Below are positions 22,961 to 27,762 of a DNA stretch of 64,000 bases, one piece after another. The DNA comes from an uncultured Leptolyngbyaceae cyanobacterium (lineage in GTDB: Bacteria > Cyanobacteriota > Cyanobacteriia > Leptolyngbyales > Leptolyngbyaceae), in the NCBI GenBank assembly GCA_938023035.1, contig CALIDI010000047.1:1-64000 (forward strand), in the 5' to 3' direction. The notes under the pieces are model-generated. The model was not told the origin of the DNA. It searched no databases and saw only the letters and a program-made list of their open reading frames with translations. The stretch's first letter is position 1, and every line of letters begins with the position of its first letter. A program made the position numbers and the translations under genes.

Positions 22961-23617
22961 ATGCCACAGCCACAATTTCACCAACCCCAGCGAAAACAGC
23001 GAATCCAAATGCGTCGTTTTCTGGTCTGGGGCTTGAGTTTCATTGGGGCATTTGTTCTGGCTATTTCTCCCCTGAGTGGGATAGCCACCGAATCGACCGC
23101 CACTAAAGTGGCTGTAGGAGGTAGCTGGCGTGGGGCTTCCTTTCCTGTCGAAAACTTTATTACTTATACCTCTCCCTTTGGCTATCGGCGCTCTCCGGAT
23201 GGCGGCTACCGCCAAGAGTTTCATCGGGGCCTGGATATGGCCGCGCCCCAAGGTAGCTACATTCGTAACTGGTGGACAGGGCGCGTAGTTGAAGTCTCTG
23301 ATAACACCGCTTGTGGTACTTCCGTTGTCGTACAGTCAGGCGACTGGCAACATATCTATTGCCATATGGAAGGTCGCGTCGAATCTGCCAATGGGCAGCG
23401 CTACATGATTGATCGCGCAGGTGGAGTGCAAATTTTTGAAGGACAAACAGTTTCTGCGGGAATGCGGATTGGCCGAGTGGGCATGACTGGGCGGACCACA
23501 GGGCCTCATTTGCATTGGGGTCTGAAGTATGACAATCAGTGGGTCGACCCGGCATTAGTGTTACGAGCCATGTATTCTGAGCAAACGGGGGCGGGGTCAG
23601 TTTCAGTGCGCCCTTAG
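22961..23617 (+). CDS. M23 family metallopeptidase
   Basis: This is an LytM-type peptidoglycan endopeptidase of 218 residues. After a basic N-terminus and the transmembrane or signal segment VWGLSFIGAFVLAISPL, the catalytic domain carries the zinc ligands HRGLDMAAP (His and Asp, about residue 91) and GPHLHWGL (HxH, about 180). The FGYRRSPDGG segment before it is also typical. GAGGAG, 7 to 12 bases upstream, decides the ATG at 22961. It probably cuts cross-bridges in the periplasm. With the amidase of the neighbouring exporter cluster it makes a wall-remodelling neighbourhood, though the strands differ. Confidence 0.9.
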   Translation: MPQPQFHQPQRKQRIQMRRFLVWGLSFIGAFVLAISPLSGIATESTATKVAVGGSWRGASFPVENFITYTSPFGYRRSPDGGYRQEFHRGLDMAAPQGSYIRNWWTGRVVEVSDNTACGTSVVVQSGDWQHIYCHMEGRVESANGQRYMIDRAGGVQIFEGQTVSAGMRIGRVGMTGRTTGPHLHWGLKYDNQWVDPALVLRAMYSEQTGAGSVSVRP

Positions 23618-23774
23618 GAGGTTTTTCATAAAAGAATTCTCCTTGGTGTCGCTACGCGGAAGTCAAAATAACAAAGCTTCAAAGTGAAAAAAGCTCAGCG
23701 TCTCCGTAGTGCAAGATTCCTGAATCGGCGACTCGTTTTTGCCGTAGTGCACCACTAGCTATCTGCCTGAGAGC

Positions 23775-23822
23775 GGGGATAAGGGGGCGAAACTCCTGGC
23801 TAGGAGCAGCACCCCTATCCCC
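23775..23822. repeat. Nested hairpin, repeat-family related
   Basis: GGGGATA, one bulged A, and GGGG pair with CCCCTATCCCC (11 base pairs), and the loop itself contains CTCCT-GGCT-AGGAG. The 5' arm and the TAGGAGC string recur near 15899-15928, so this is a member of the dispersed repeat family. The stretch 23618-23968 around it has no supported gene. Confidence 0.5.
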
Positions 23823-23968
23823 TTTAACTCCTGATCGATTCAGCAACCGGGCGATCGCTCTGTTATTGTTGTTCCTTAACCGTGGGCTGTCTAATGTTAG
23901 AAGCACTCTAGATTCTAATTGGTTTGAGAAACGACACTTAGCCCACAGGGGTTCAATACCGAGATTCT

Positions 23969-24148
23969 CTAGCGAAATCGAACATAGTGGATGCCGCGAT
24001 AGCTCAATCGCAAGGTTGCATTGGGCATACTGTCGGAGTTTGAGAGTCCTAGCTGGTGCTGGTGCTTTCTTGTCAAGGCCGGTGAACTGATCTCACTGTT
24101 GGGGGCATCGGCAGAGTCGTAGGAAATCCCACGATACATCAGTCGCAT
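23969..24148 (-). CDS. DUF4278 microprotein (first of two)
   Basis: This is a 59-residue cyanobacterial DUF4278 protein. The hallmark YRGxxY occurs at both ends: LMYRGISYDS near residues 4-12 and LSYRGIHYVRFR at the C-terminus, with a polar linker between. The function of the family is unknown. The ATG at 24148 is supported by AAGGAG 10 bases upstream. A second DUF4278 gene lies 97 bases upstream on the same strand, so the two probably form a tandem pair from duplication. It is below 60 residues and easily missed by standard gene calling. Confidence 0.82.
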   Translation of the reverse strand: MRLMYRGISYDSADAPNSEISSPALTRKHQHQLGLSNSDSMPNATLRLSYRGIHYVRFR

Positions 24149-24245
24149 AAGCAGAATACTCCTTAGAATAGGTGGCGAATCAATGAATGGAATGGAATCA
24201 CAGGGCCTCTTTTACACTTGAGTTGATCAAATTAGGGAAAACCAC

Positions 24246-24419
24246 CTAACGCCGGTAGGTTGCACCTCGGTAGGAAAGTTGAACATGGGTTGAAGCCAAT
24301 GCCTGAGGCGCTGTAAAACGTAAAACCACCCCCCGATATCGCCCAATAATTGGGCGATCGCTGGTTTTAACCGGTGTCGAAGTAGTGGTGTAAGAAATGC
24401 CGCGATAGGTCAAGTTCAT
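24246..24419 (-). CDS. DUF4278 microprotein (second of two)
   Basis: This 57-residue protein carries the same hallmark in three places: LTYRGISY at the N-terminus, RYRGVVL in the middle and LSYRGATYRR at the C-terminus. A HIP1 octamer falls inside the gene. The ATG at 24419 has AAGGAAG 8 bases upstream. It lies directly upstream of the other DUF4278 gene in the same orientation. The repeats at both ends of each protein, and the pair of genes, suggest nested duplication of a short YRG unit. Function unknown. Confidence 0.82.
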   Translation of the reverse strand: MNLTYRGISYTTTSTPVKTSDRPIIGRYRGVVLRFTAPQALASTHVQLSYRGATYRR

Positions 24420-25091
24420 GGGGACGCTTCCTTGCGCTCTCGGTTGACTTCTTTATCATGCTCTGTCACGCCTCCGCGATCGGTGATAGCCATCAATCAG
24501 CAAAGTGAGCCTCCACAAGTATTTACGTGACCGCTAACATCCCCAGAAACGACTCTTGACACATCCCATGGATGACACTCGACCAGCCAAATTGTGACCG
24601 ACGCCAGCAATGTCGGTGATTTAGATACAGGGATCTGATCGCTGTTGCCATAAGAACCATTGACGACGAGCCAGAAAGCCGCCCCGCATCGGCAGTTGCC
24701 CACTGGGTTTTATCCCAAGTTATCTGACCAAAGCCAGACTTTGGCATTCTGTATCACTGCGCTTAAACAAGTCTGCTGGTAATAGTATTAGGAGCGTTGT
24801 CTCTAATCTGCGACGTTTGAGCAAACAACCCAACTTAAAACTCTCCCCCCTTTCAGCTCACTCAAAACGCAGCATTACGCAAACACGTTAGGACGATTCA
24901 ATAAAAGAGGATTTGGCAAGTTTTCAAATATTTAGCGGAAAAATCTTCCGAGATTCGGCCCAACTTTAGCTTGTACCGATAGAACCGCTAGGAAGTTGCT
25001 CAAGCGTTGGCAAAGCCAGCCTAGAAAACTCATAAAACCCTCCTACTCTTTTCCCCTGCTCTCTCTCACCCTCCTTTACCAGCTAGCTCCT
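24420..25091. other. Gene-free region upstream of the D-lactate dehydrogenase gene
   Basis: No gene is supported. On the minus strand, 24500-24750 has two overlapping open frames of about 70 codons with a coding-like look in alternating frames (FGQITWDKTQWATAD in one, VVNGSYGNSDQIP in another). This would fit a decayed VCBS/FG-GAP-type repeat, but the evidence is weak. The promoter of the dehydrogenase gene should lie in the last 150 bases. Confidence 0.3.

Positions 25092-27762
<2,671 letters not shown>

Follow-up and report, generated by a model that had tools for sequence, protein, structure and literature searches.

The gene pair

What might two adjacent DUF4278 microprotein genes in a cyanobacterial genome do, and how might they be expressed? 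The pair lies in a 64-kb stretch of DNA (here called the window) from the genome of an uncultured Leptolyngbyaceae cyanobacterium (G000; 4.75 Mb, 62 contigs and 7 DUF4278 matches). Both genes are located on the minus strand, d2 (24246..24419, 57 aa) followed head to tail by d1 (23969..24148, 59 aa), with a spacer of 97 nt between them (24149..24245). In the open reading frame analysis, each runs from ATG to stop without interruption, and each start is preceded on the same strand by a ribosome-binding-like sequence, AAGGAA for d2 (24428..24433) and AAGGAG for d1 (24159..24164). The d2 product scored 55.7 bits and the d1 product 30.8 bits against the Pfam profile of DUF4278 (PF14105), for which the curated cut-off is 25.3 bits, and the match ends at residue 55 in both. 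The original prediction of two neighboring DUF4278 genes with intact frames and good ribosome binding sites was thus confirmed.

The d2 product contains three YRG motifs and has a net charge of +8 and a pI of 11.3, and the d1 product, with a net charge of +4 and a pI of 10.1, has just the first and the last of them. It had been suggested that YRGxxY occurs at the ends of both proteins and also in the middle of the second. The YRG motifs are present, but the middle motif in d2 is YRGVVL, which is a YRG but not a YRGxxY.

No promoter-like site was found in the spacer, and TCAC, the motif analyzed below, does not occur on the minus strand between the two start codons. We observed one weak terminator-like stem of 5 pairs (24258-24242); such stems number 5 in the 1.5 kb scanned, as compared to 1.6 in shuffled sequences. 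We infer that d2 and d1 are most likely co-transcribed from a start upstream of d2.

Repeat architecture of DUF4278 proteins

A total of 134 DUF4278 matches were identified in 39 genomes, the window genome counted, and at least one match was present in 35 of them. Exactly three YRG motifs were found in 78 of the 134 matches (35/48, 23/63, 9/10 and 11/13 in four classes), and in 102 with a relaxed motif. Three motifs is therefore the commonest state of the family, which makes d2 ordinary and d1, with two, the odd one. The 57-position Pfam profile covers the entire YRG repetition. The duplication of a YRG unit proposed originally is therefore not a local event, since the repeat architecture is family-wide. 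A DUF4278 protein with five YRG motifs and an internal repeated segment was observed at locus L046 (G012:C81:44441), showing that expansion occurs elsewhere.

The comparison with other DUF4278 loci recommended in the original prediction showed that the tandem arrangement recurs. Of the 39 genomes, 5 (G000, G001, G008, G033 and G035) contain one or more tandem clusters within 1.5 kb, a count that omits one overlapping same-frame pair in G012. In G035, three tandem DUF4278 genes were observed, and every one of them has a separate glutamine riboswitch (L040; G035:C2:1066602-1067466). Riboswitch-linked DUF4278 proteins were also observed at L004 (G000:C21), and similar ones in G001, G004, G006, G014, G017, G020 and G023; their C-terminal part ends in YDRSHxxLS and differs from the tail of proteins like IF17, the glutamine synthetase inactivating factor discussed below.

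A search of solved structures returned no DUF4278 match with E up to 10, and three weak matches for the C-terminal half of a protein resembling IF17. In an AlphaFold model of d2 based on 18 sequences, six strands are predicted with RG at each turn, although the confidence of this fold is low (pLDDT 68.7, pTM 0.26).

Conservation and age of the pair

In G001, a genome of the same genus, relatives of d2 and d1 are located in the same order on contig C154, with 49-51% identity to d2 and 42% to d1. A third, frame-shifted DUF4278 gene lies between the two relatives. The similarity to this locus was significant both at the protein level in a set of 57 sequences (E=6.5e-12 for d2 and 7.4e-12 for d1) and in whole-genome searches (E=8.3e-10 and 1.9e-9), values at which the resemblance is not attributable to chance. 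With the window genome counted, 7 of 388 genomes encode a protein of the d1 type at E<=0.001. Proteins resembling d2 were found at E<=1e-6 in 66 of the 388, many of these matches being other DUF4278 members.

In a tree of 70 short DUF4278 members, which has few columns and many unresolved forks, d1 clusters with its relatives in G001 and G006, apart from d2 (bootstrap 99, SH-aLRT 58). This grouping suggests that the duplication behind d1 and d2 probably predates the split of the two species.

Four neighbors of the pair in the window, which we take to be M23-like, dehydrogenase-like, mutase-like and SfsA-like genes, gave no match within 16 kb around the G001 cluster. The SfsA-like gene is located elsewhere in G001 and adjoins a DUF4278 gene in G012. 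A common neighborhood was also considered as a clue to function, and none of the recurrent families points to the window pair. Neighbor families present in at least three genomes lie mostly beside riboswitch-linked DUF4278 genes; a mixed family of 16 proteins from 7 genomes occurs beside riboswitch-linked and riboswitch-free genes, and another, of 5, includes a riboswitch-free DUF4278 gene.

A TCAC array upstream of d2

Upstream of d2, on the minus strand, we identified a putative activator array that is absent from the original prediction. It consists of three TCAC sites (24483..24530) with starts at 24530, 24508 and 24486 and spacings of 22 and 22 nt. Two further TCAC sites (24594..24619; starts 24619 and 24597, spacing 22) may form its outer part. 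The last TCAC is followed by a putative -10 element, ATGAT (24455..24459), which begins 27 nt downstream of the first base of that TCAC; the gap between the two is 23 nt, as in 44 of 53 instances. Relative to d2, the sites start at -111, -89 and -67, plus -200 and -178. Thus, the region has the layout by which we define an array promoter, with TCAC sites at intervals of 22-23 bp and an ATGAT some 27 nt downstream of where the last of them begins, and it holds the sole TCAC triple of 22-nt spacing in the window.

A sequence model was constructed from 35 instances picked for a plausible downstream gene, none of them from the window genome. It gave one match in the window, at 24444-24531 (22.1 bits, E=5.7e-6, a rough value). 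In the window genome, with 150 of 532 candidates scored, two DUF4278 promoters ranked first and second (rough E=1.1e-7 and 4.3e-4). The d2 relative in G001, which was outside the training set, has TCAC at -136, -92 and -69, among others.

No published description of the array was found in a literature search that lacked most subscription papers. NrrA, the CRP family, RpaB/HLR1 and HetZ/DIF1 were considered as the TCAC factor, and none is supported by the excerpts of PMC7377430, PMC4390870, PMC6133370, PMC3898017 and PMC9241938.

Promoter-like TCAC patterns in other genomes

For 56 regions upstream of short DUF4278 genes without a riboswitch, an EM run yielded a motif of two blocks, TCAC and ATGAT, separated by 23 nt. 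Its score was 377, as compared to at most 203 in four shuffles, which had 40 starts as against 150. A second motif of 16 nt scored 157 (at most 92 in shuffles) at scattered positions. Of the 67 riboswitch-free DUF4278 genes with an ATG start, 16 have the pattern TCAC-N21..25-ATGAT/TATGA in the preceding 230 nt (shuffles: mean 0.65, maximum 4), as compared to 1 of the 58 riboswitch DUF4278 genes (shuffles: mean 0.5, maximum 5). The 16 genes are distributed among 8 genomes and 6 genera, and 8 of them are in G001, including the d2 relative. The other 51 of the 67, d1 among them, lack the pattern.

A stricter pattern of two TCAC plus ATGAT was found 76 times in the 39 genomes, as compared to 10 times for the reversed pattern. 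Of these places 75 were examined, 10 in earlier loci and 65 in further loci, and the latter divide into 43 outside and 22 inside long open reading frames. Additional TCAC sites that were not part of the search occur upstream of the 43 non-coding instances, 20 of them at 22-23 nt, 15 at 43-46 nt and 6 elsewhere; an extra TCAC at 21-24 nt occurs in 1 of the 22 coding instances. Of all the results, this unsearched periodicity speaks most strongly for a real element. The periodicity is modest in 115 loci chosen for DUF4278 rather than for TCAC, where TCAC pairs number 26 at 22 nt, 31 at 23 nt and 37 at 45 nt, with a mean of 16.7 pairs per distance and control 4-mers reaching 31 at some distances.

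Counting overlaps, we found 222 arrays of four TCAC copies, distributed over 74 of 291 genomes, as compared to 22 in 14 genomes for the reversed control. Plain short tandem repeats are among them (L249, L252, L261 and L263). The window genome has four-copy arrays on C10, C18 and C34. Six consecutive TCAC sites at 22-23 bp were observed on C10 (L270; G000:C10:84281-84395), and the heuristic scan showed no convincing gene directly downstream of them.

Microprotein families downstream of TCAC arrays

Among the two-TCAC instances with a candidate gene, the gene has a relative downstream of another match in 20 of 36 non-coding cases, as compared to 2 of 17 coding cases; the 20 include pairs that come from the same genus or the same genome, and the choice of the downstream start codon is heuristic. 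For the four-copy arrays, 39 different places were examined among the matches listed, and 38 of them have a candidate gene. Once five places that occurred twice were discounted, 23 of these 38 have a relative behind another array, again among the matches listed. The 23 comprise the LADRYG (8), YWRQLIEVGVPID (4), GYLTIEA (4) and VVEQIF (3) families, plus two within-genus pairs, so that four families without a name account for 19 of the 38. Their proteins are small, approximately 72 aa for LADRYG, 90 aa for YWRQLIEVGVPID and 70 aa for GYLTIEA; VVEQIF proteins are of the form VVEQIF-RRITR.

Pfam scans of 16 representatives gave one match above cut-off, the DUF4278 protein of G050 (L243). LADRYG proteins (LTLADRYGL...NELS) were observed behind arrays in several genera (L271 at G000:C18, L250, L262, L264, L267, L275, L282 and L187), and the two members scanned have no Pfam name. 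Behind two-TCAC promoters, we observed SEFPLF one-helix-like microproteins in seven genomes (L176, L180, L183, L190, L203, L207 and L210), with no Pfam match for the one member scanned. INWRY microproteins, which have a DUF4278-like start below the Pfam cut-off, occur in the same position (L173, L175 and L214), as do related proteins of 438-469 aa in five genomes (L171, L177, L199, L208 and L209), for one of which the first 110 residues gave no Pfam match.

Proposed mechanism

The interpretation that we favor, at about even chances of being correct, is that d2 and d1 encode stand-alone DUF4278 microproteins that are produced from one array-activated transcript and act as partner-binding modules. 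A putative activator would bind the TCAC sites, which at 22 bp, or two helical turns, would be located on one face of the DNA, and would bring RNA polymerase to the putative -10 element, ATGAT. A single transcript would start upstream of d2 with a short leader of approximately 28 nt and continue into d1, which is rare and has no promoter signal of its own. The products are small and strongly basic, and YRG is the probable turn of a beta-hairpin. Each would probably attach to a partner protein as a binding module but would not itself inactivate glutamine synthetase. The protein-binding role is probable by analogy with IF17, whose N-terminal domain adjoins its glutamine synthetase-binding part.

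Alternative explanations

One alternative assigns the pair to nitrogen control, with an accessory role in the inactivation of glutamine synthetase resembling that of the riboswitch-linked DUF4278 genes and of the IF17 N-terminal part. The only papers retrieved by full-text searching for DUF4278 were PMC6316151 and PMC11288750. According to the sections of PMC6316151 consulted, DUF4278 constitutes the N-terminal moiety of IF17 (gifB), the glutamine synthetase inactivating factor of Synechocystis 6803, and both are tied to the glutamine riboswitch and to glutamine synthetase control; the original view that the function of the family is unknown is therefore not wholly correct. In one passage the N-terminal part is described as disposable for function and good for stability, and in another it also seems to enhance inactivation (PMC6316151). 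The net positive charge of d2 and d1 is shared with the inactivating factors in these excerpts, and of the 73 riboswitch matches in the 39 genomes, 57 have a DUF4278 match no more than 250 nt downstream, including those before 3 of the 7 DUF4278 genes in the window genome. However, among the DUF4278 matches the riboswitch precedes 43 of 55 with an open frame above 130 aa, 2 of 5 of intermediate length and 13 of the 74 that do not exceed 110 aa, and an NtcA box was found for 43 of 48 riboswitch-linked genes for proteins above 75 aa. At the window pair both controls were sought and are absent: RF01739 gave no match at gathering score in the whole window and none up to E=10 in 23600-25100, and no NtcA box (GTAN8TAC) occurs in the 400 nt before d1 or d2. 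A C-terminal part homologous to IF7 is also absent, the frames ending at 57 and 59 aa. Based on these results, we consider nitrogen control of the pair unlikely.

It is about as unlikely that the two genes are paralogues drifting within a family prone to fast duplication, and that they now have little function or none. The absence of the middle YRG from d1, the small number of genomes with d1-type proteins and the frame-shifted gene between the G001 relatives would agree with drift, as would the lack, among families in at least three genomes, of a neighbor family specific to riboswitch-free short genes. Frames and ribosome-binding-like sites are nevertheless intact in both genomes despite the low identity, and a TCAC array precedes both d2 and its relative. 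We regard it as still less probable that the TCAC spacing before d2 arose by chance or serves something other than d2 transcription. The 4-mer TCAC is common, a factor that binds it was not identified here, and the periodicity is modest in loci not selected for TCAC, but the single triple in 64 kb, the match to the sequence model, the excess over reversed-control matches and the 22-bp periodicity that was not part of the search all argue against such an explanation.

Implications

The tandem 22-bp TCAC sites could be the operator of one undescribed cyanobacterial activator with a dispersed regulon, largely of orphan microproteins and including riboswitch-free DUF4278 genes, a proposal that is as apt to be right as wrong. 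Its members would be the LADRYG, YWRQLIEVGVPID, GYLTIEA and VVEQIF-RRITR families, the SEFPLF one-helix membrane proteins, the INWRY proteins and the 438-469 aa protein. DUF4278 would then operate in two separate circuits, one with the glutamine riboswitch and NtcA and the other with the TCAC array. For many microproteins of cyanobacteria, no function has been assigned and no mode of control is known, and a readable promoter signature that groups several families provides a direct handle, by which one condition, one regulator and one pull-down would address many together. The array separates stand-alone DUF4278 genes from glutamine riboswitch genes, which argues against treating each DUF4278 gene as a gifB homologue; a recent survey (PMC11288750) identified gifB homologues by this domain.

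Comparison with known systems

Relative to Pfam PF14105, both products match the whole profile above the cut-off, although d1 lacks the middle YRG and is only 5.5 bits over it. DUF4278 is common to the window proteins and to the N-terminal moiety of IF17 as described in excerpts of PMC6316151, but the window proteins stop after this domain, without the IF7-homologous tail. The genes controlled by the type 1 glutamine riboswitch (RF01739) encode the same protein family, whereas the window pair is without the riboswitch. The DIF1 (DIF+) promoters of Anabaena carry TCCGGA at -35, and the portion of PMC6133370 available reports no conserved pattern upstream of -35 in the DIF+ alignment. TCCGGA is not found between TCAC and ATGAT of d2, whereas the two-TCAC promoters of L176, L180 and L190 have TCCGGAA or TCAGGAA directly after the last TCAC.
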